Shown here: piece after piece, positions 4,083 through 28,196 of the stretch
Layout: every line of letters begins with the position of its first letter
How positions within the stretch are numbered: position 1 is the stretch's first letter
Source: Acidobacteriota bacterium
GTDB taxonomy: Bacteria; Acidobacteriota; Terriglobia; Bryobacterales; Bryobacteraceae
DNA length: 39,945 nt
Reading direction: 5' to 3'
NCBI GenBank assembly: GCA_025354525.1
Contig: JANXMS010000620.1
Span: forward strand, 1-39,945
Translations under genes and position numbers: made by a program
The notes under the pieces: generated by a model
Database searches by the model: none
The model's input: the letters and a program-made list of their open reading frames with translations, nothing else
What the model was told of the DNA's origin: nothing

Positions 4083-4580
4083 ATGGGAACTTTCGCGAGT
4101 GTATTTAACCGAGTACTGCCGCTGATTGCGGGCGGGGAACGAAACGATTTCAAGGAACGGATGACGCCTCGCCCTGAGCCGTGCGCATTGCGCGCGATGC
4201 CGAACGAGGACATTCATTTATTTATCAAGCGGATCGATAACAATCGCGTAATCCGCACGGAAGACAAGCAAGCGACGGCGACCTGTTGGCGGACGATCGG
4301 GGTGGCAGGCCTTTCGGCGGTAATTGCTGTGGGCATGATTGTTCCGACGGCCTACGGGCAGCTGGCTGGCTATCAAATTGAGCGCTCGCGGGAAGAGCAG
4401 TCGCGGTTGAGAAAGCAATTAGCGCAGCTTGAAGCGATGGAAGCCCAGTTGTTGAGCCCAGCGACGCTGGCGCGTATGGCGGATGACCAGAATTTTGTCG
4501 AGGCTTCTCCGGAGACGATGGTGGTCCTCAATGTCGATCGGTCGACGGCATTGGCGATGAATCAGAGTCCGAAGCAGTAG
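4083..4580 (+). CDS. ftsL: FtsL-like division protein
   Basis: This 165-residue bitopic protein has a cytoplasmic N-terminus of about 70 residues, one membrane helix (VAGLSAVIAVGMIVPTAYGQLAG, about residues 75-97), then a coiled coil (EEQSRLRKQLAQLEAMEAQLL) and a short tail with the ASPETMVVL segment. Size, topology and place between rsmH and ftsI match FtsL, which joins FtsB and FtsQ to activate FtsWI septal synthesis. FtsL is poorly conserved in sequence, so the call rests mainly on topology and synteny. The long cytoplasmic region is unusual compared with the E. coli protein. Confidence 0.78.
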   Translation: MGTFASVFNRVLPLIAGGERNDFKERMTPRPEPCALRAMPNEDIHLFIKRIDNNRVIRTEDKQATATCWRTIGVAGLSAVIAVGMIVPTAYGQLAGYQIERSREEQSRLRKQLAQLEAMEAQLLSPATLARMADDQNFVEASPETMVVLNVDRSTALAMNQSPKQ

Positions 4581-15681: not shown

Positions 15682-16563
15682 ATGGCACGCAAACAGCCCA
15701 CTCCCACCGCCGTCCGCACCGAAGATCGCCAGGCTCGCTTTCGAACCGTGCGTAAGGGTCTTGTTTGGGCCACGCTGTTTTCAGTCGCGCTAGTCAGCCT
15801 GCTTCTCGGCTGGCAGGAAACGCAGAACTATCTTTTGCGAGACGCGCAGTTCCGAGTGCCAATGCCGCCGGACTTAGGTGAGGAGAGTCCGAATCTTGAA
15901 ATTCACGGAATCAAGAATGCGGCCCGGGCTCAGGTGGCCGCTCCATTTGGCGCTGACTACGGACGCAGCCTTTACATGGTTCCTATCCGTCAACGGCGCC
16001 TTCAGTTACTGGAAAATCCCTGGATCGCCGAAGCGAGCGTAACTCGGGTTTGGCCCAATCGGGTGCGGGTTCACATTACCGAACGGGAGCCGGTAGCGTG
16101 GATCCAGATACCGGGCGAAGATCAATCGGCGCGACCCGCATTGATTGATGGCGATGGCAACATTTTGCAATTGCAGCAGCCTGGTGACTTCAAGCTTCCA
16201 GTGCTTTCGGGGGTAACTCCTCGTCAGGCCGAGGACGATCGAAAGTTGCGTGTTCACCGTTTTGTTAAGCTGCTGCAGGACGCTGGAACGTTGGCCGAAA
16301 AAATATCTGAAGTCGACGCCGCCGATCCGGGTAACCTAAAGGTGATGCAGGATGAAAGCGGGCACGTGGTTACACTCCTTCTAGGGGACCGTCAGTTCAA
16401 GCGGCGGCTGGAGAAGTTCCGGCTGAGTTATCCGGAGATCCAGAAGCGTGCGCCGGAATCGACCATTTTTGACCTTCGGATAGAAGGCAGCATTCTGTCC
16501 GTGCCCCGGGGCCCCGGGCAAGCGGAGCAGATCATCCGAGTTGAGGTTCCGCGTGGAGTCTAG
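15682..16563 (+). CDS. ftsQ: FtsQ / DivIB division protein
   Basis: This bitopic divisome protein forms the FtsQBL scaffold. A cytoplasmic tail and membrane helix (about 27-45, LVWATLFSVALVSLLLGW) precede a POTRA-like region (LEIHGIKNAARAQV to LLENPWIAEASVTRVWPNRVRVHITEREPVAWIQI) and the FtsQ beta domain (about 140-290). The segment W-I-x-x-A-x-V-x-R-x-W-P-N is the recognisable FtsQ core. It is 293 residues. The first ftsA-like gene starts inside its last 11 bp. Confidence 0.9.
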   Translation: MARKQPTPTAVRTEDRQARFRTVRKGLVWATLFSVALVSLLLGWQETQNYLLRDAQFRVPMPPDLGEESPNLEIHGIKNAARAQVAAPFGADYGRSLYMVPIRQRRLQLLENPWIAEASVTRVWPNRVRVHITEREPVAWIQIPGEDQSARPALIDGDGNILQLQQPGDFKLPVLSGVTPRQAEDDRKLRVHRFVKLLQDAGTLAEKISEVDAADPGNLKVMQDESGHVVTLLLGDRQFKRRLEKFRLSYPEIQKRAPESTIFDLRIEGSILSVPRGPGQAEQIIRVEVPRGV

Positions 16564-17419
16564 CGGATCGCTCTTGCGCGCCGGACTCGACGCGGGCAGC
16601 GTATATACGCGCTGCGTTGTGATTGAGTGGAGCAGTGGTCGACCGCGTTTGCGCAGTGCCAGCGTCGTACCTTCCCAGGGCTGGCAGGACGGTCGGATTC
16701 GAAACGCTGACGCCGTGGGGGGGTCCATATCGGCGGCAGCACTTTCGGCTGGCATCCGGGCGGGCATATCGGTGGACGCGATCACGGTCGGGTATGCCGA
16801 TTCGTTCAATCAGATGGAAGCCTTAAACGCCGCGATTGAGCGGAGTGGCCTGCGCGTGGCTGATTTCGTGGTCGAGAGCGAGGCTGCTCTGCTAGCGACG
16901 ACTTCGGACTTAATGAGGCAAGGGGGGATCAGCGCGGCGGCGATTGGCGTCGACGCGACCGAACTAGCTTATAGCGATTTGACTGGCGGCATTCGCACGG
17001 CCAGCGTGGATGTTGGCTCGCGCGAATTCACGCAGGATATCGCTAGCCTTTTTGATTTGCCGCTGGCCGAGGCCGAACACCTTAAGCTGGCGGAAGGGAG
17101 CATTGGCCGGATCGGCGTGGAACAAAAAACCACCCCGTTGCAGGAGATTCTGGAGGCGCGAGCCGGACAGTATCTTCACATGCTTGAATTTCGGATCGAA
17201 GAACTATCCGGACAGTTGCCGCCTCCGGGTGGGCTGATTCTAGCGGGCGGAGGCGCTTCCCTGCCCGGCTTATGTGATTTCGCGGAGAGGTTATTGCAAT
17301 GCCCCGTCCGGTTGGGCCAAGTGATCGGAGTGGCGGAATGGCCGCTGGAACTTTCCGCACCAAGCTGGGCCGTTGCGGCAGGGTTGGCGCTGCATGGAGG
17401 TGTCTCCCATGGCTGGTAG
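16553..17419 (+). CDS. FtsA-like protein lacking subdomain 1C (FtsA paralog 1)
   Basis: This 288-residue actin-fold protein is closely related to the next gene product. Residues 11-80 align without gaps (GLDAGSVYTRCVV in both). Then about 79 residues present in the neighbour (its about 84-162) are missing, which is the 1C subdomain of FtsA. The rest of the fold continues to the adenosine loop AGGGASLPG (231-239). The phosphate-2 aspartate, D209 in the neighbour, is A130 here, and no amphipathic C-terminal helix is present (ends GGVSHGW). I choose GTG 16553 (11-bp overlap with ftsQ); TTG 16541 is also possible. It is likely a non-polymerising or modulatory FtsA relative, which is inference. 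Confidence 0.8.
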   Translation: MESSGSLLRAGLDAGSVYTRCVVIEWSSGRPRLRSASVVPSQGWQDGRIRNADAVGGSISAAALSAGIRAGISVDAITVGYADSFNQMEALNAAIERSGLRVADFVVESEAALLATTSDLMRQGGISAAAIGVDATELAYSDLTGGIRTASVDVGSREFTQDIASLFDLPLAEAEHLKLAEGSIGRIGVEQKTTPLQEILEARAGQYLHMLEFRIEELSGQLPPPGGLILAGGGASLPGLCDFAERLLQCPVRLGQVIGVAEWPLELSAPSWAVAAGLALHGGVSHGW

Positions 17420-18611
17420 TCGGGTTCGTTTAGCGGTTGGACTGGACGCCGGAAGTTTCTACACCCGCTGCGTGGTCTGCGTCGTCGAGGACGGCAGAAT
17501 TCGCTTTCTGGGTTCGGGCGAAGTCGAGTCGAAAGGTTGGACGAAAAGCCGGATTGCGGACCGGGACGTGATGTCGGAATGCATCTGTCGAGCGGCTGGG
17601 GAAGCTGAGCGCCAAGCGCAAATTTCCTTCGATGCGGTCGTGGTTGGTTTAGGCGGCGAAGCGGTGAAAGGGGCCAACGCGCGGGGTGTCTACGAGTTCG
17701 GTCGGCCTCGCGAAATCGACGATTCGGACATGCGCTACGCGGTGGAACTGGCGTGCCGGGTGCGGCTCGAAGATGATCGAATTCTGCTCCAAGTATTGCC
17801 GCAAGACTTTACGGTCGACGGTCGGACCGGCATACTGAACCCACGCGGTATCCGTGGTTCGCGGCTCGAGGCCAATGTGCACGTCGTGACGACTTCGGCC
17901 ATCGACCATCAGGCCCTTGTCAGCGCAGTTCATCATGCGCATCTGGCGGTGGAAGAGACGGTTTTCGAGGCGATGGCGGCGGCCTATGCCTGCGTTCTTC
18001 CAGAGGAGCGGGCCAAGGGTGTTGCGGTCGCCGACATCGGGCTGCACTCGACTGAACTGGTCATCTACGACGGCGAGGCGATGGTGCAGGCGATCAGCAT
18101 TCCTGTCTCCGCGGATCACTTCACGCGGGACGTGAGCACGGGCTTTCACGTTACGCACGAGGACGCCGAACGGCTCAAGATTGAATACGGTTGCGCGATC
18201 CTGGGATTGACGGCGGACAACACCTTCATTGAGGTACCGTCGGCCGAAGGAAGACCCGCCCGGGAGGCGCCTCGGCGGGAGTTGAATGACATGCTGGAAG
18301 CGCGGGCGCAGTTTCTATTCGAGTATCTGCAGCGCAAAGTAATTGAAGTGGACATGGATCGGTCTCTGCTCGAAGGCATCGTGCTGTGCGGCGGCGGTGC
18401 TCGACTGAACGGCATGTGCGACGTCGCCGAACTCGTACTGAATTGCCCCGCTCGAAACGGTCTCCCGGTCGGCATCCAGGACTGGCCGAGTCGACTCAAC
18501 AATCCGAGTTGGACTACCGCCGCGGGCTTGGCCATGTACTCGGGCCGCTTGAAACAACACCGCGACGGGCGCAAGCCCCGCCCCCCTTTTCTTAATCTTT
18601 TAATGCGCTAA
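17409..18611 (+). CDS. ftsA: Cell division protein FtsA (full-length paralog)
   Basis: This 400-residue actin-like ATPase anchors FtsZ to the membrane. It has the phosphate-1 loop GLDAGSFYTR (11-20), the complete 1C region (about 84-162, VLPQDFTVDG), the phosphate-2 loop DIGLHSTEL (209-217), and the adenosine loop LCGGGARLNGM (326-336). A basic linker ends in PPFLNLLMR, a plausible short membrane-targeting tail. The phosphate-2 loop lacks the usual glycine pair. ATG 17409 is chosen because GGAGG lies just upstream; it overlaps the previous gene by 11 bp. ftsZ follows after 17 bp. Confidence 0.9.
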   Translation: MAGSRVRLAVGLDAGSFYTRCVVCVVEDGRIRFLGSGEVESKGWTKSRIADRDVMSECICRAAGEAERQAQISFDAVVVGLGGEAVKGANARGVYEFGRPREIDDSDMRYAVELACRVRLEDDRILLQVLPQDFTVDGRTGILNPRGIRGSRLEANVHVVTTSAIDHQALVSAVHHAHLAVEETVFEAMAAAYACVLPEERAKGVAVADIGLHSTELVIYDGEAMVQAISIPVSADHFTRDVSTGFHVTHEDAERLKIEYGCAILGLTADNTFIEVPSAEGRPAREAPRRELNDMLEARAQFLFEYLQRKVIEVDMDRSLLEGIVLCGGGARLNGMCDVAELVLNCPARNGLPVGIQDWPSRLNNPSWTTAAGLAMYSGRLKQHRDGRKPRPPFLNLLMR

Positions 18612-18628: not shown

Positions 18629-19876
18629 ATGGCAGAACTCAAATTTCAAATTCAGGAAGAGGCCGAACTCGGCACCCGGATCAAGGTGATCGGCGTCGGA
18701 GGAGGTGGATGCAACGCGGTCGCTCGCATGATGAACGCTGGGTTGCAAGGCGTAGAGTTCTACGTCCTCAACACCGACATGCAGGCGCTGCAGGCTTCTC
18801 CAGTGCCGAACAAACTGGCGATTGGCAGCAAGATCACGAACGGCCTAGGGGCGGGAGCGAACCCGGAGATAGGACGCCAGGCGGCGATGGAGGACACCAA
18901 CCGTATCATCGAGATTCTCGAGGACGCCGACATGGTCTTCATTACCTCCGGTCTGGGAGGTGGCACGGGCACGGGCGCAACGCCGATCGTGGCCTCATTG
19001 GCTCGGGAACTAGGCGCGCTTACGGTGGCCGTCGTCACCAAGCCGTTCAGCTTCGAAGGGCCCCGTCGGATGAAACAGGCCGAGCAGGGTCTGGCCGAGA
19101 TCGCCGGCGTGGTCGATACCGTAATCTCAATCCCGAACGATAAATTGCTGAAGCTGGCGGGTAAGAACACAAGCTTTCAGGAAGCGTTGCAGATGGCCGA
19201 CGACGTGTTGCGGCAGGCCGTGCAGGGCATCGCCGACATCATCACGACCCCAGGCATCATCAACCGGGACTTCTCCGACATTCGAGCCATCATGTCCGGC
19301 ATGGGTTACGCCATGATGGGCACTGCGTCGGCCACGGGCGAAGATGCCGCCATCGAAGCCGCGCGGCAGGCTATCAACTCGCCGCTGCTGGAAGAGGGCG
19401 GCGTGGAAGGTGCCCGCGGCATTCTTATCAACATTACGGGCTCGAGCCGTTTGGGTCTACTCGAAGTCAGCGAGGCTTGCACCCTGGTTCGCGAGGCTAC
19501 GCAGAACGATGACGTGCAGATCAGCTTTGGCGTTGTCGCCGACGAGAGCATGGACGAGACGGTGAAGCTCACCGTCATCGCGACCGGCTTCGAGCGGCAG
19601 ACCTTGCCGCAGATTCAACGCCGGAAGACGGCCGGGTCGCAACCGGTGGCCATCGACCCGGCGCTGTTTATGGACTTGCCGACGCCCCCACCCCCGATCA
19701 ATCTGATCGAGCGAGAACCTTTTTCTGAGACCGAGATCCAGACGCCCGAGGCCGAGTGGGTCGCTCCGCCACAGCCTGCGGAATCGGCTACGCCAGAAGC
19801 GACAAAGCCAGTCGATCCATTCGACGACGTGGATACCCCGGCGTTCTTGCGCCGCGAACGTAGGCTCTTCCGCTAG
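18629..19876 (+). CDS. ftsZ: Cell division protein FtsZ
   Basis: This tubulin-like GTPase forms the Z-ring. It shows GVGGGGCNAV (22-31), the tubulin signature GGGTGTG (110-116), and the T7 synergy loop GIINRDFSDIRAIM (about 208-221), where the usual hydrophobic residue before DF is arginine. A proline-rich linker (about 330-395) leads to the conserved C-terminal peptide DTPAFLRRERRLFR that binds FtsA. The length is 415 residues. A GGAAGG ribosome site precedes ATG 18629. Its stop shares the CTAG tetranucleotide with the stop of the convergent esterase gene. Confidence 0.97.
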   Translation: MAELKFQIQEEAELGTRIKVIGVGGGGCNAVARMMNAGLQGVEFYVLNTDMQALQASPVPNKLAIGSKITNGLGAGANPEIGRQAAMEDTNRIIEILEDADMVFITSGLGGGTGTGATPIVASLARELGALTVAVVTKPFSFEGPRRMKQAEQGLAEIAGVVDTVISIPNDKLLKLAGKNTSFQEALQMADDVLRQAVQGIADIITTPGIINRDFSDIRAIMSGMGYAMMGTASATGEDAAIEAARQAINSPLLEEGGVEGARGILINITGSSRLGLLEVSEACTLVREATQNDDVQISFGVVADESMDETVKLTVIATGFERQTLPQIQRRKTAGSQPVAIDPALFMDLPTPPPPINLIEREPFSETEIQTPEAEWVAPPQPAESATPEATKPVDPFDDVDTPAFLRRERRLFR

Positions 19877-21441
19877 CGCAACACGCGCTGAAAAAACGCG
19901 GCGATCTTGGCCAGGTTCTCGGCCGTTTGGAAGGCCGGCCCGCCGTGGCCGGCACCATGGAAGATCGTCATTTCCACCGGCACGCCGGCCTTCTTTAACG
20001 CATCCCGCAACAGTTCACTCTGCTCGAGGGTGACCAGCGGATCGGCGTCACCGTGCTGAATCAGGAAGGGCGGGTCGTCCTTCGTGACGTAGGAGATGGG
20101 GTTCACCTTTTCGGCCAACTCCGCGTTTTGCTGCACAGGTCCGCCGATCAGACGGGCCTCCGGAGCCTCGGGCGAATCGTGATCCATCCTGGATGCGTAC
20201 ATCGACATGCGACGGAGCGCGGTGGGTCCGAACCAATCAACGACGGCTTGGACCTTATCCTCCCCTTCCCCGATGGTGCCGAGCAGGGCGACCAAGTGAC
20301 CGCCGGCCGAAGACCCCCAAACGCCGATCTTCGTTCCGTCGTAGCCGTATTTGCTGGCGTTCTTGCGTAGAAAGCGAATCGCGGTGCGGCAATCGTCGAT
20401 CTGAGCAGGCATCGGAGCCACTTGGCTCAAGCGGTACCGAATGCTCGCTGCCGCAAAGCCTTTGGGAACCAATTGCAGCGATGGCGCGTTCTCTTTTGAT
20501 CCGTTCTGCCAGGCTCCGCCGTGGATCCAAACGATGAGAGGCGGCGGCTTTGCCGGCTTCGACTTCGGGACGAAAACGTCGAGCAGTAGACCCGGGGCGT
20601 ATTCCACGTTCAAGTGAGATTCAATGCCATCGGGGATCGGTCGTTGCGGCCCAGCAGGAGAAGGCTGCAGAGCGCCTTCGGCGAAGAGCGCCCCTTTGCT
20701 GCCTTGCGGCATCGCGATAGTTGGCTTGCCCTGCAAGAACCCTTGCGAGCGCAGAAAGCCATCGGCCAAGTAGGTGGTCGAGGCATGCCAAGTGCCGTCG
20801 CCGCGATCGTTGAAAAATCCGTGTGGCTGGCCTTTGGCGACAAACAGTTGCACCGGCAGTCGCTTGGCCTGCGCCTTCCGCCAATACGCTTGCGCTTCCG
20901 GGTACATCTTGTCGGCTGAGCCGAAGAATAGAATGGTGGGCGGCATCCCCGCAACGGGTTCGGCCTGAGCCAGGCCAGCCGGATTGAAGAGCACCATCGA
21001 AGCTGGTTTGGCACCTGTTTCCAAGAGCGACAGCGCACAGGAGCCGCCCGCGGAGCCGCCGCCGGCTGACAACTTCGCTGGATCGATGCCCTGCTCCCGC
21101 GCATGGGCTTGGAGCCAGGCGAAGGCCGCTTGGCAGTCAACCAGCGCGTCTTCTTTGGAGGTTTTGTGCTGGCTCTTTACCCGATACTCGGCGCTCGCCG
21201 CCACAATGCCGCGGCTGGCCAAGTAGCCGGCCTTGGAGTAAAACTGCCGCGTGCTTCCATTCACAAAGCCACCGCCGAAAAAGAGAACGATACCCGGTCG
21301 GACATCCGTCGGCTTCCACCCATCCGGGTAGAACACGGTCATCTTCAACTCGCCCTGCGGAGTCGTTCGGTAGACAACTTCCTCGCGGGTTATACCCCAC
21401 CCAATTCCCAGCACACCCAGCAGACACAAAAGACGGATCAT
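19873..21441 (-). CDS. Secreted tandem alpha/beta-hydrolase (two esterase domains)
   Basis: This 522-residue protein has an N-terminal signal sequence (MIRLLCLLGVLGIGWG) and two complete BD-FAE/acetyl-xylan-esterase-like domains. Domain 1 (about 20-235): oxyanion FFGGGF (54-59), nucleophile in GGSAG (S130), D177 and H207. Domain 2 (about 275-522): HGGAW (307-311), GSSAG (S378), D467 and H499. Each triad looks complete. Such esterases remove acetyl or feruloyl groups from polysaccharides; the substrate here is unknown. It is convergent with ftsZ and divergent from the gene at 21468, with only 26 bp between starts. Confidence 0.85.
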   Translation of the reverse strand: MIRLLCLLGVLGIGWGITREEVVYRTTPQGELKMTVFYPDGWKPTDVRPGIVLFFGGGFVNGSTRQFYSKAGYLASRGIVAASAEYRVKSQHKTSKEDALVDCQAAFAWLQAHAREQGIDPAKLSAGGGSAGGSCALSLLETGAKPASMVLFNPAGLAQAEPVAGMPPTILFFGSADKMYPEAQAYWRKAQAKRLPVQLFVAKGQPHGFFNDRGDGTWHASTTYLADGFLRSQGFLQGKPTIAMPQGSKGALFAEGALQPSPAGPQRPIPDGIESHLNVEYAPGLLLDVFVPKSKPAKPPPLIVWIHGGAWQNGSKENAPSLQLVPKGFAAASIRYRLSQVAPMPAQIDDCRTAIRFLRKNASKYGYDGTKIGVWGSSAGGHLVALLGTIGEGEDKVQAVVDWFGPTALRRMSMYASRMDHDSPEAPEARLIGGPVQQNAELAEKVNPISYVTKDDPPFLIQHGDADPLVTLEQSELLRDALKKAGVPVEMTIFHGAGHGGPAFQTAENLAKIAAFFQRVLR

Positions 21442-21467: not shown

Positions 21468-22601
21468 ATGGCTGAACCAGTATGGTCAAAATATATTCAC
21501 CCGGGGACGATTCTTGAACAAGTTCAAAACACGGCTCCTTTTCTTGCGTCGCGCCTGCATCCCCTGCCTGGCCCACTGATCGCGATGGGCGCGCCGCCAG
21601 ACGGATTCCTTAACGTCCTCGCGTCGGCCAAAGACATTGGAACAGTCGAGGACTATTTCGCTCTCTGTTGCTCCGCCCATCAAGCGACGGTTGCAACGTT
21701 CGTCCCCACCGATGTCGACAGCAAGATCCGAGGCATTCTGTGGAATGAAACGCGGGACCCGCAGGTATTGGGGCGCATGGCGAAGTTTGCCCTGCAGATG
21801 CAGCATTGGACTCTCGACGGGATCTCCCAGCGAGTTACGGTCGACCCCGAACTGGGCCTCGTCTCCGGACACAACGGGGAATGGTTCTCGGTGGCCAGCG
21901 GCGGTCTCGGCCGGTTTTTGCAACTGGGTTTGGACGAGCCGTTCACGGAATTGATCGACGCGGAACTGAAGCGCGAGGCACAGGCGTTCCTCAACGCACT
22001 GCGCACACCTGGCCGCGAGATCGACACCATGCTGCTTGTGGTCTCGATCACCCACAACGTTGGAGACCTCGACCAAGGCATCAGCTTTTGGGAAGGTGCT
22101 GGCCAACACTCCGAACAGAAGCAGCGATTCAATCGTTTGGCCCACGAAAACAAGCTGGCCTACGGCGGCATCTTCCAACACATCGCGGGCCTTTACAAGG
22201 ACTGCCTCAGCGCTGAGGGCCACCGCCACTACCCGCTGCGGCCGATCAAACCCCTGCGCCAGTCGCCGACGCTGCTGTTGCCCCTCGGGCCATTTTTCGA
22301 TGAGTGGGGCGCAATCATCGGCGGGAGCCCGCTGCTCACCGACAGTGACCGAGCCGAGGTCCTGGACGCCCTGTTGAAAGGCTGCAAGAAAGTCGACAAC
22401 CAGTTCGGCTATTTCCGCGCCATGGCCGGTTGGCAAAATGAGCAAGCGAACAGCTTCCAGCGAGCCGCGGACCGGCTACCCGCCGGGAGCAAGAAGCTTT
22501 TAAAGGAGCCGCTCATGCGCCAGAAGCTAGCCGTTCCCCGGCGGAGTTTCGAGTCGACCTACGTCAAGCGGGTGGAGGCTTTGCGAGCCAAGCTCCGCTG
22601 A
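21468..22601 (+). CDS. Conserved-looking protein of unknown function
   Basis: I do not recognise this 377-residue protein. It has no signal sequence or membrane helix, so it is probably cytoplasmic. The composition is balanced and mostly helical, with a segment AKFALQMQHWTLDGISQRVTVD followed by a glycine-rich turn (HNGEWFSVASGGLGRFL) and a basic C-terminus (SFESTYVKRVEALRAKLR). AAGGA sits a few bases before ATG 21468. Its 3' end overlaps the convergent pseudouridine synthase gene by 43 bp. It is the first gene after a 26-bp divergent spacer, so its promoter must lie inside the esterase gene. Codon use looks like that of its neighbours. Confidence 0.75.
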   Translation: MAEPVWSKYIHPGTILEQVQNTAPFLASRLHPLPGPLIAMGAPPDGFLNVLASAKDIGTVEDYFALCCSAHQATVATFVPTDVDSKIRGILWNETRDPQVLGRMAKFALQMQHWTLDGISQRVTVDPELGLVSGHNGEWFSVASGGLGRFLQLGLDEPFTELIDAELKREAQAFLNALRTPGREIDTMLLVVSITHNVGDLDQGISFWEGAGQHSEQKQRFNRLAHENKLAYGGIFQHIAGLYKDCLSAEGHRHYPLRPIKPLRQSPTLLLPLGPFFDEWGAIIGGSPLLTDSDRAEVLDALLKGCKKVDNQFGYFRAMAGWQNEQANSFQRAADRLPAGSKKLLKEPLMRQKLAVPRRSFESTYVKRVEALRAKLR

Positions 22602-24624: not shown

Positions 24625-25977
24625 CTACTTCCCAAATGGAAGCGAGGTCGGAGCATAGTTTAACCCAAACGAAACGCGACTCCCGCTACGATCAAAGGAC
24701 GATCCTTCAATCTTAAACTTGCGGTATTCCACTCCACCCGTAAATCCTATCTCGCGGGTAAGCTTGCGCGTCAACCGAACTTGAAAGCTATCGCTCGAAA
24801 ACGCGCCCAATAGGTTTCCGGTGCCTATCGAGTCCATCTTGCTGCGTAGCGCCAAAGCGGTCATGCTCCACTTCGCCTTCAGTTGATAGTTCGCCGAGGC
24901 GGTGTAAGTAGAGACGATAGAAGTCAGAATCAAACCGTTTCCTGGCTGTACACCACGTTCGGTCCCGACCGAATACGAGCTCAATCGAATGCGTTTTGAG
25001 ACGTTAGCCCCAAACCCAGGCGTTCTCGTAACATTTCTGAAAGCCTCGGAGCCCTGATTCGCACCGAGCAATGCGGCAATCACCGGGTCCAACGCAACCC
25101 GGCGAACGCCCACCGTCCGAACGTCGAAGATGGAAACATGGGCCGAAGCCTGCCACCCTCTCCCCAGCTCCCGTGAATAGTTCCCGGAGACACCGTTGAT
25201 ATCCGATTCGCCAAACTGCTTCCCAAAGTCGAAATGGGAATAAGTGTAAGTCAATCCGAGCGAAGACCGCCGATTCAGGCGATAGTTCGCGCCCACCGCT
25301 CCGCCAAACAAGTTTGTGTCAGCAAGGGCCCGGGCCTGCCTTCGCACGACCCCGCCATTGCCAGAAAATTGTAGCTGCCAACGATTATTCAAGCGGTAGC
25401 CCAAGGCCATGCTCGACTGGAGAAAATAGATTCTGGCGTCAAACAATTCATTGGTCGGAGCCGAGAAAAACTCAAAACCATCCGTCTGCCGATTGAGCAG
25501 ATTCCCTAAAACCCGATTCGAGATGCTCCCCGCTGTGTTCAAGGTCAGTTCGGTCCGCTTGGTCATCCGTCGCGAATACGCTAAATTTATCGACTGATTG
25601 CTTCCATTGAAATTAGACGCGTTAAAGAAGTGGTTGTAGTTAGCCAGATAGGAGATCCCGAATACAGCTCGCCGAAGCTTCTTCTGGCCGGAGATAGTAA
25701 ACCCTCCATCGACACCGTACGACCCAGAACCGGGAGTCAATTTTCCATCTTTGTCGACACGGAACGCCCCCAGCAGCGTGTCATAGGACCCGTCCAGCGT
25801 CATCGAAATGGAGATAGGAACGGATTCAGCTCCCAGCATCCCAATCCGGATCGGACCCTGACCCGCCCCACCCTCATAGGGGGTCGCCACGTTCGAAGAA
25901 CTGCCGGAGGTGGAATCCTGTGCCCAGACCGAGGAGGCAAGGGAACACACGAAGCATAATCGGACGAAAACTTTCAA
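24625..25977 (-). CDS. Outer-membrane beta-barrel protein
   Basis: This 450-residue protein has a signal peptide ending at VWAQ (MKVFVRLCFVCSLASSVWAQ). After a low-complexity Ser/Gly stretch, the rest is alternating polar-hydrophobic strands with aromatic girdles (FGISYLANYNHFFNAS, LGLTYTYSHFDFG, VSANY-like repeats, SRVSFGLNYAPTS), typical of an outer-membrane barrel, perhaps 16 or more strands. I recognise no specific family. A role as porin-like or assembly protein is open. It is divergent from the gene at 26229. Confidence 0.78.
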   Translation of the reverse strand: MKVFVRLCFVCSLASSVWAQDSTSGSSSNVATPYEGGAGQGPIRIGMLGAESVPISISMTLDGSYDTLLGAFRVDKDGKLTPGSGSYGVDGGFTISGQKKLRRAVFGISYLANYNHFFNASNFNGSNQSINLAYSRRMTKRTELTLNTAGSISNRVLGNLLNRQTDGFEFFSAPTNELFDARIYFLQSSMALGYRLNNRWQLQFSGNGGVVRRQARALADTNLFGGAVGANYRLNRRSSLGLTYTYSHFDFGKQFGESDINGVSGNYSRELGRGWQASAHVSIFDVRTVGVRRVALDPVIAALLGANQGSEAFRNVTRTPGFGANVSKRIRLSSYSVGTERGVQPGNGLILTSIVSTYTASANYQLKAKWSMTALALRSKMDSIGTGNLLGAFSSDSFQVRLTRKLTREIGFTGGVEYRKFKIEGSSFDRSGSRVSFGLNYAPTSLPFGK

Positions 25978-26228
25978 GGCGCAAACTCCCTAATGTAGAT
26001 ATCGGCTGACTCGGGCGGTTTCTTTACTCAAATTCCAGCCTTCTGCCCAATCACAAATGACCCCTACAATTTACCAAGAAATTACCCTAGGTAGCCGAAA
26101 AGGTCTGGTGCTCCTTTCCTGTTTTCGCGAAACGCGTCATCATCGAGTCGAATCCTATCATGACGAAACGTCAAATTTCCGCGAAAGGATCGGCCTCCCG
26201 GCGAAATCCCCCAGTGAACGGAGAACCC
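25978..26228. other. Divergent intergenic region
   Basis: This 251-bp AT-richer spacer separates two divergent genes for exported proteins. It contains the 10-bp palindrome TTTCGCGAAA (26123-26132) and must hold both promoters. A reading frame starting at ATG 26160 joins the downstream gene in frame, but ATG 26229 is preferred for it. I see no RNA gene. Confidence 0.5.
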
Positions 26229-28196
26229 ATGAAAAACAAAATCGTCCCCGCCGTCCTCGTGGCTACGGCTCTTGTTGCCGCTGAACTGCCCGTAAAACGG
26301 GTGGTGCTTTACAAACATGGCGTAGGCTACTTCGAACGCGCCGGCGAGGTCCCCAGCGGCCAGACGGCCCGTCTCGAATTCAAGCCCAACGAAATGAACG
26401 ACGTCCTGAAGTCGCTCGTCCTCGACGAAAAGGGCGGAGGGCGGGTTACCGGGGTACGTTATGACTCCGCCAAACCAGCTCGCAGTTCGCTCTCGGTCGA
26501 AAACGAAGTCGCTCTCGCCAAATTCCTCGACGGCCTCCGCGGGGCGAAAGTCGACGTAGAACTAGTCTCGGGCAAACTCTCCGGCTCCATTCTGAGCGGA
26601 CGCGTCGTCGCCTCCACCGATCAAAAGGTGCAGCAGGAACTGCTTGTGCTGCTCACCGATTCCGGCGATCTTCGCACCCTTGACCTCGCCAGCGCCAACT
26701 CGGTCCGTCTCACTGACCCCCTTCTTCAACTCAAGCTCCGTGAATACCTCCAATCCATGGCCGGGCTGCGCACGCAAGAGCAGCGCGCCGTTTACATCGA
26801 TGGCGAGTCCACCCGCTCCCGGCAGCTCCGTGCAAGCTATCTTCTGCCCACCCCGATTTGGAAATCGAGTTACCGTCTCATCCTTGGCGCGACTCCCATA
26901 CTCGAAGGCTGGGCGATCGTGGATAACACGACCGACAGTGACTGGACCGGCATCAGCCTCGCCCTCGTTTCCGGTAAGCCCGTCAGCTTTCAGAGCCGAC
27001 TTTACGATCCCAAATTTATCGAACGCCCCTTCGCCGAACTCGCGGAAGAGCGCGCGGTCGCGCCCGAACTCTACGCCGCCGGCATGGGCGGCGGCGTCGG
27101 CAGCGGCGGACCTCAGCCCGCCCCGATGGCCATGGCCGCCCCGATGTCCAAGCGCTCCATGGCGCGCGCCGAATTGATGGCCGACACTGCCTTCGCCCCC
27201 GCCCAGAGCAATGTCGCCGTCAACACGGCCGGTCGCGATCTCGGCGAACTCTTCGAATACGCGTTCTCGACACCAGTCACGGTGAAGAAGAATGAGTCAG
27301 CCATGCTGCCCTTCCTGCAGCAGAAGATCGAAACCCGCAAACTGCTTATCTACAACGATGAGTCCCAGCCCAATCCCCGTACCGCCTCCGAAATCACGAA
27401 CGGCACGGGGAAGACGCTAGACGGCGGTCCCATCACCGTCTTCGACAACGGCGCGTACGCCGGCGAAGCGCTCGTCGAAACGGTGAAAGCCGGCGACAAG
27501 CGTTTAATCTCTTACGGCATCGATCTGGGGACCCGCATCACCACTAACTTCGATAGCGAACAGCGCCAAATCCGCGAAATCCGAGCCAATCGCGGCATCC
27601 TCATCGCCAAGGCCAGCACCGAAGAAACCAAAACCTACACGATCAAGAACGTCGACCCGCGCGCCAAAACACTGATCATTGAACACCCCCTCCGTGGCGG
27701 TTTCAAACTGATGGGACTTACCGCGACGGAGAAGACCGCCACCGCTTACCGCTTCTCGCTCAACCTCAAGCCCAACTCCGAGGAGAAATTTGTCGTCAAG
27801 GAAGAGTACCTTTACGATCAGTCCTACGCGATCTCCTCCACCACTCCGGACCAAATCAACATCTTCCTGCGTAACCCAACGCTCTCGCCCGCCGGGAAGT
27901 TGGCGCTTGAAAAAATTCAATCGCTCAAGAGCCAGATCGCCGAGTCCGACCGACGCCTGCGCTCAACCGAAGCCCAATCGGCCAGCCTCGAAAAAGACCA
28001 GGAGCGCTTGCGCGAAAACATCCGGTCCCTCAATTCAGTAAGCGGCCAAGCACAGCAAGTGCAGCGCTACGCCAGCGACCTCTCAGCCCGTGAAACCAAG
28101 ATCGTCGAACTCCGCGATCAGGCCCAAGCCGAACGGCTGAAGAAGGGTGCGTTAGAATCAGAGCTGAATGGCTTTCTGGCTACCGTCACTTTTTAA
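26229..28196 (+). CDS. Secreted DUF4139-like protein with C-terminal coiled coil
   Basis: This 655-residue protein has a signal peptide (MKNKIVPAVLVATALVAAE) and begins its mature part with LPVKRVVLYKHGVGYFERAGEV, the N-terminal strand pattern of DUF4139/MuiA-like proteins. The middle is beta-rich (about 200-550), interrupted by a Met/Pro/Ala/Gly-rich stretch (about 295-330, PAPMAMAAPMSKRSMARAELM). Residues about 560-640 form a coiled coil (IQSLKSQIAESDRRL and following). ATG 26229 with GGAG upstream gives the signal peptide; ATG 26160 would hide it. Function is unknown; periplasmic location is likely. The next gene starts 9 bp later. Confidence 0.7.
   Translation: MKNKIVPAVLVATALVAAELPVKRVVLYKHGVGYFERAGEVPSGQTARLEFKPNEMNDVLKSLVLDEKGGGRVTGVRYDSAKPARSSLSVENEVALAKFLDGLRGAKVDVELVSGKLSGSILSGRVVASTDQKVQQELLVLLTDSGDLRTLDLASANSVRLTDPLLQLKLREYLQSMAGLRTQEQRAVYIDGESTRSRQLRASYLLPTPIWKSSYRLILGATPILEGWAIVDNTTDSDWTGISLALVSGKPVSFQSRLYDPKFIERPFAELAEERAVAPELYAAGMGGGVGSGGPQPAPMAMAAPMSKRSMARAELMADTAFAPAQSNVAVNTAGRDLGELFEYAFSTPVTVKKNESAMLPFLQQKIETRKLLIYNDESQPNPRTASEITNGTGKTLDGGPITVFDNGAYAGEALVETVKAGDKRLISYGIDLGTRITTNFDSEQRQIREIRANRGILIAKASTEETKTYTIKNVDPRAKTLIIEHPLRGGFKLMGLTATEKTATAYRFSLNLKPNSEEKFVVKEEYLYDQSYAISSTTPDQINIFLRNPTLSPAGKLALEKIQSLKSQIAESDRRLRSTEAQSASLEKDQERLRENIRSLNSVSGQAQQVQRYASDLSARETKIVELRDQAQAERLKKGALESELNGFLATVTF

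Follow-up and report, generated by a model that had tools for sequence, protein, structure and literature searches.

Introduction

The window analysed here is a stretch of 39,945 nucleotides from an Acidobacteriota bacterium of the family Bryobacteraceae (assembly GCA_025354525.1, contig JANXMS010000620.1, positions 1 to 39,945), and it covers a division and cell wall (dcw) cluster in which two open reading frames of the FtsA type stand in tandem, in the order ftsQ, short FtsA, FtsA, ftsZ. The question raised by this locus is what role a second, shortened FtsA may have directly upstream of a complete one. The short gene is present in nine of the 19 genomes of the window's genus, with an open frame in all nine. 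Judging from alignments and trees, its product descends from FtsA, and a role as tuner of FtsA oligomers is put forward here tentatively.

Features of the short protein

The two genes and the segments that distinguish them are listed below; all lie on the plus strand.

16553 to 17419: short FtsA paralog of 288 amino acids, without 1C, without a 17-residue piece of 2B and without the C-terminal tail (open reading frame; PF14450)
17409 to 18611: canonical FtsA, 400 amino acids from ATG (TIGR01174 with 281 bits against a cut-off of 175.85; PF02491 and PF14450)
17655 to 17894: 79-residue 1C/SHS2 domain of FtsA, absent from the short protein; FtsA residues 83-162, with limits that may shift by one or a few residues (alignments, Pfam)
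18198 to 18248: second stretch that the short protein lacks; FtsA residues 264-280 (Escherichia coli 265-281), 17 amino acids (47-row alignment, hhalign)
18561 to 18608: C-terminal tail of FtsA, ending RKPRPPFLNLLMR, absent from the short protein and presumed to be membrane-targeting
16940 to 16942: codon of A130, which aligns with D209 of FtsA, the phosphate-2 aspartate
17141 to 17191: QEILEARAGQYLHMLEF, the longest run invariant in all nine short proteins, residues 197-213 (E. coli 294-310), holding the R300 equivalent

The similarity between the short protein and the neighbouring FtsA yields E values of 3e-34 with BLASTP and 5e-45 with hhalign and is therefore not due to chance. The FtsA core profile PF14450 matches the short protein of the window with 46.6 bits (cut-off 31.8) and, with E values of up to 0.1 admitted, matches all nine short proteins, whereas the FtsA equivalog TIGR01174 remains at 91.3 bits, below its curated cut-off. 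Profiles of related families also stay below their cut-offs: TIGR01175 (31.9 versus 133 bits) and PF11104 (23.4 versus 27 bits) for PilM, and PF06723 (17 versus 27 bits) for MreB. With FtsA as represented by TIGR01174 and by the structures from E. coli, Thermotoga maritima and Vibrio maritimus, the short protein shares the actin-like core, the motifs GLDAG and GGGA, which we take to be the phosphate-1 and adenosine motifs, and the place in the dcw cluster before ftsZ. It differs from canonical FtsA in the lack of 1C/SHS2, of 17 residues of 2B, of the C-terminal tail and of the phosphate-2 aspartate. PilM has an FtsA-like fold in common with it and matches weakly, but differs in dcw location and in 1C, since PilM has a 1C of its own (PMC7613929). 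A second full-length FtsA in the source genome was considered and rejected. The third PF14450 match of that genome (L002) lies in a frame of 341 amino acids that reads as MreB and is followed by an MreC-like frame, both named by eye.

An initial annotation of this DNA had described two tandem FtsA-type frames, the first without about 79 residues corresponding to 1C, and on this pairwise MAFFT, a 47-row alignment, hhalign and the Pfam profile SHS2_FTSA (PF02491) agree. The absent block comprises FtsA residues 83-161 (MAGS numbering) with MAFFT and 84-162 in the 47-row alignment; hhalign likewise omits 79 residues, with the gap split around three residues, so that the edges are certain only to a few residues. 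In the 47-row alignment the short protein passes from VGYAD directly into SFNQMEAL at the cut. SHS2_FTSA covers residues 83-161 of FtsA (17655-17891) with 79 of 79 profile positions and 70.3 bits, and, with the threshold set at E 0.1, finds nothing in the nine short proteins, which supports the identification of the block as the 1C domain. Exactly one SHS2_FTSA match occurs in each of the 19 genomes of the genus. Relocation of 1C elsewhere in the genome was thus not found. A 1C-like domain displaced within the predicted structure, which the same annotation had named as an observation that would speak against it, is not seen at the level of sequence.

The same annotation had expected a constant alignment offset of 79 beyond the gap. 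This applies to short residues 84-184, but from residue 185 on the offset is 96, because FtsA residues 264-280 are missing as well. Going by the domain limits of FtsA, this segment is presumably part of subdomain 2B and, inferred from its position, would hold strands S12-S13. The absence of a membrane tail, noted there as well, was borne out at the level of sequence: the short protein ends with HGW, and FtsA continues for about 16 residues; the family's FtsAs have a hydrophobic C-terminal end, and the short protein lacks these last residues.

At the phosphate-2 position, for which the contrast between A130 and D209 had been noted earlier, alanine occurs in eight and valine in one of the nine short proteins, and aspartate in all 38 FtsAs of the family sample. 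The phylum sample adds 14 FtsAs, four of which have asparagine there, so the aspartate is not absolute in FtsA. The phosphate-2 motif is DIGGGT in E. coli and DIGxxST in most of the family FtsAs compared. The equivalent of E. coli R286 is V189 in the short protein and R285 in FtsA. The equivalent of E. coli R300 (R203), which we take to be a contact to FtsZ, is retained together with EAR in all nine short proteins.

Gene overlaps at the locus

The genes are tightly packed, again on the plus strand.

15682 to 16563: ftsQ (PF08478 and PF03799)
16553 to 16563: overlap of 11 bases between the end of ftsQ and the start of the short gene, kept in 9/9 carriers
17409 to 17419: overlap of 11 bases between the end of the short gene and the start of ftsA, ATGGCTGGTAG in the window, kept in 9/9 carriers
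18629 to 19876: ftsZ, with the tail DPFDDVDTPAFLRRERRLFR (named by eye)

The short gene starts with GTG at 16553, a start supported by an ATG at the equivalent place in one relative (L041) and by a conserved GAGG upstream (9/9 carriers). Upstream of ftsA, GGAGG is present in seven of the nine carriers and GGGGGG in the other two (L039 and L040).

Distribution and selection

A family-wide profile search detected the full-length short gene in nine of 237 genomes, all nine within the genus of the window; none of the other 218 family genomes searched gave a full-length match, and three further matches are confined to the second part, in frames as long as a usual FtsA. The matches listed for an order sample of 150 genomes and for 396 genomes sampled across the phylum include no full-length one from outside the genus. 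Scanning the entire genome_contigs collection with a pattern, which detects close relatives only, found eight loci, all of Acidobacteria type, in metagenome-assembled genomes labelled Acidobacteria, Bryobacteraceae, Acidobacteriaceae, Acidobacteriales or 'Candidatus Sulfopaludibacter', the last being a genus that NCBI assigns to Bryobacterales. The eight carriers other than the window genome are all metagenome assemblies, and their short frames share 75-93% identity with that of the window.

In eight of the ten congeners without the short gene the junction is seen in the locus, and ftsQ is followed by ftsA with no room between them. Since the gene is lacking in these ten congeners and in the 218 remaining family genomes searched, a gain specific to the lineage is indicated.

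The ratio of nonsynonymous to synonymous substitutions (dN/dS, NG86) is 0.028-0.141 in all 36 pairs of the short gene and 0.020-0.082 in 28 pairs of ftsA, the values of distant pairs being rough since many dS values exceed 1. To judge from these ratios, the short gene is kept by selection and is not decaying. The initial annotation had named decay or absence in relatives as arguments against a functional pair; decay was not seen, whereas absence is a fact in about half of the genus and in the rest of the family sample. Assembly error and pseudogene formation were rejected on the basis of the open frames in nine genomes and the low dN/dS.

Origin of the duplicate

In a tree with outgroups the short proteins are placed inside the FtsA clade of the family (support 100/100). 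Descent from an ancient actin without 1C was therefore rejected, as the short proteins are nested among the family's FtsAs. W44 and W263-P264 are common to the short proteins and the family's FtsAs in every row that is not gapped at these positions; in a set of 14 additional FtsAs, which includes one from a genome of the same family (L063), W44 occurs once, W263 once and P264 six times. The stem of the short proteins amounts to 2.06 changes per site, compared with 0.14 for the partner FtsA, and to 1.73 in another tree. The pattern is one of duplication and a burst of change with three losses, followed by constraint.

The tree with outgroups sets the short proteins elsewhere in the family than with the partner FtsA (86/91). 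Forcing them together with the partner FtsA costs 6.07 log-likelihood units (approximately unbiased test, AU, p 0.10), together with the FtsA of all congeners 3.94 units (p 0.18), and with L013 added 3.86 units (p 0.18); none of these placements is rejected. Mean identities of the short proteins to five groups of FtsA are similar (33-35%). A recent copy of the neighbouring FtsA is one possible origin of the short gene.

Divergence between the paralogs

Comparison of nine short proteins and eight FtsAs over 288 positions gives 67 positions fixed alike, 84 fixed differently, 69 fixed in FtsA only, 36 fixed in the short proteins only and 32 variable in both. Fixed differences are somewhat denser in 2B (22 of 61 positions versus 62 of 227 elsewhere) and affect seven of the eight positions of the helix at E. 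coli 302-309. After QEILEARAGQYLHMLEF, the next-longest invariant runs of the short proteins are residues 247-257 and 110-119.

For FtsA itself, sites fixed but differing between partner and sister FtsAs were counted, with L013 used to polarise the changes. At the 384 core sites, 4 changes fall to the partner clade, the one that carries the short gene, and 13 to the sister clade; the direction is ambiguous at 14 more. For the 16 sites of the tail (18561-18608) the corresponding numbers are 4 and 1. The last 20 residues of FtsZ, compared by eye, are nearly identical whether or not a congener has the short gene.

Published FtsA mechanism and comparison

FtsA protofilaments are held together by longitudinal contacts between IIA and IIB and are paired laterally by 1C, and FtsN binds in the cleft between 1A and 1C (PMC7613929). 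An E. coli FtsA variant unable to form double filaments, M96E R153D, is dominant negative, and one or two such subunits were proposed by the authors to destabilise the double filament; double-filament-defective FtsA still recruits FtsN and is rescued by superfission alleles (PMC11323482). The same paper, which addresses the matter with engineered alleles, calls it unproven which FtsA oligomer assembles and activates the divisome. According to deletion work cited in PMC4281207, 1C is needed for self-contact of FtsA and for the recruitment of FtsQ and FtsN, and S12-S13 of 2B are reported as essential for FtsZ binding. FtsA R286W shows lower self-contact and gain of function (PMC5832921, PMC9098913) and additionally eases double filaments with FtsN peptide (PMC7613929). 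In two-hybrid assays with Neisseria gonorrhoeae proteins, subdomains 2A and 2B of FtsA take part in the interactions with FtsQ, FtsZ and FtsN, and 2A in that with FtsW (PMC5727935).

For E. coli FtsA M96E R153D, as for the short protein, loss of the lateral 1C contact is predicted, but the variant is full length with 1C and membrane helix and is a laboratory point mutant, dominant negative when expressed beside FtsA; the short protein would be its natural counterpart. FtsA R286W (FtsA*) resembles the short protein in the absence of arginine at this place, where the short protein has V189, and for this reason self-contact may be weaker in the short protein; FtsA*, however, is a full, membrane-bound FtsA with gain of function. 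Laboratory deletions of 1C or S12-S13 from E. coli FtsA (PMC4281207) remove the same modules, the second as judged by position; these deletions are artificial, whereas in the short protein both losses are natural, occur together and are conserved.

Proposed function

Our tentative proposal is that the short protein might co-assemble end-to-end with FtsA and, without 1C, block the double filaments, which in E. coli reportedly switch on the divisome. The short protein would be co-translated with FtsA and join it end-to-end via the shared 2A and 2B faces. Having no 1C, it would be unable to pair laterally, and would also offer no 1A-1C cleft to an FtsN-like partner, so that each incorporated copy would interrupt or delay the antiparallel double filament; alternatively, it would end the protofilament through its reduced 2B. 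The outcome would be an encoded brake or tuner of the oligomeric state of FtsA, acting as poison subunit or cap, with delayed activation. More doubtful is the further step that a dedicated natural 1C-deleted FtsA, co-translated with FtsA, is an endogenous brake on double-filament formation and hence on septum activation, which would make it the genetic counterpart of a dominant-negative FtsA put to regulatory use.

In support of this proposal, the major loss coincides with 1C, the lateral interface of FtsA; the genes overlap, dN/dS is low, V189 replaces the arginine, and SepF was found in none of the 19 genomes of the genus (a control search was positive in seven of 14 genomes). Modulation of FtsA filaments, one of two functions suggested in the initial annotation, is the natural reading given the E. 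coli work on the 1C contact and on the dominant negative (PMC7613929, PMC11323482).

The weakest step is that the short protein still contacts FtsA. Several observations weigh against the proposal, and the first concerns this step: the longitudinal contact uses 2A and 2B, part of 2B is lost, and the short protein may therefore fail to bind FtsA. The comparison with R286 cuts both ways, as R286W eases double filaments with FtsN peptide (PMC7613929). Without a tail the short protein would reach the membrane only via another protein. In the partner FtsA the core has not gone through a burst of change (4 of 384 sites), although 4 of its 16 tail sites changed. The 84 fixed differences are equally compatible with a new partner and with FtsA, and about half of the genus (10 of 19) lives without the short gene. 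The precedents are all from E. coli, and SepF is the only other FtsZ anchor that was searched for.

Among the alternatives, an adaptor to a new partner is unlikely but ranks first. Here the actin-like core, released from filament duty, would bind another division or wall protein, for example the cytoplasmic parts of FtsQ or FtsW, via surfaces specific to the short family. The fixed differences described above, denser in 2B and conspicuous in the E. coli 302-309 helix, would suit this, as would the invariant run 197-213, which spans that helix, and the part played by 2A and 2B in binding FtsQ, FtsZ and FtsN, and by 2A in binding FtsW, in N. gonorrhoeae (PMC5727935); the adjacent ftsQ, however, has no obvious new part (ends read by eye) and is a candidate partner only. 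We consider it improbable that the short protein is a soluble binder of the FtsZ tail, whose retained 2B pocket would compete with membrane-bound FtsA for FtsZ and reduce tethering. Retention of R203 and EAR and the invariance of QEILEARAGQYLHMLEF argue for it. Binding of FtsZ without the membrane, the other function suggested initially, is nevertheless less well supported, as the 17 residues of 2B are gone at the presumed place of S12-S13, without which FtsZ is reportedly not bound (PMC4281207), the 2B helix is fixed for different residues, and the near-identity of the FtsZ ends means that no matching change in FtsZ accompanies the short gene among the congeners.

There is little probability that the short protein is an obligate partner or folding aid, stabilising FtsA in a heterodimer without polymerising. 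The overlapping frames suggest coupled translation and thus matched amounts, which would agree with such a role, but the gene is missing from ten of the 19 genomes of the genus and from the 218 remaining genomes of the family search, and the core of FtsA shows no matching burst. A relic or translational leader, a frame that merely couples ftsQ to ftsA and whose product has no role, is strongly disfavoured: overlap with the neighbouring genes at both ends in all nine carriers is what it would predict, whereas dN/dS does not exceed 0.141 in any of the 36 pairs and neither frameshift nor stop codon occurs in the nine genomes.

Other genes of the window

Besides ftsQ, the two FtsA-type genes and ftsZ, the cluster contains mraZ- and mraW-type genes, a penicillin-binding transpeptidase, Mur ligases, mraY-, ftsW- and murG-type genes and murC. 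The genes murC and ftsZ were assigned by eye. A frame of 165 amino acids (4083-4580, plus strand) without Pfam match at 1e-5 lies between the mraW-type gene and the transpeptidase, a position that suggests a divergent ftsL. The gene at 19873-21441 (minus strand) is convergent with ftsZ, overlaps its end by four bases and has matches to alpha/beta-hydrolases; with two matching stretches for each of BD-FAE, Abhydrolase_3 and COesterase, it probably encodes two hydrolase domains in one protein. The frames 21468-22601 (plus), 24625-25977 (minus) and 26160-28196 (plus), of 377, 450 and 678 amino acids, have no Pfam match at 1e-5.

Conclusion

No description of a natural FtsA paralog without 1C was present in the titles and abstract openings of the open-access literature matches listed, a scope that leaves aside subscription papers and preprints. 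A natural paralog without the lateral module, the tail and part of 2B would be a ready-made reagent for testing whether the oligomeric state of FtsA can be controlled by a dedicated subunit, and the genus, divided into nine genomes with and ten without the short gene, provides a natural comparison.

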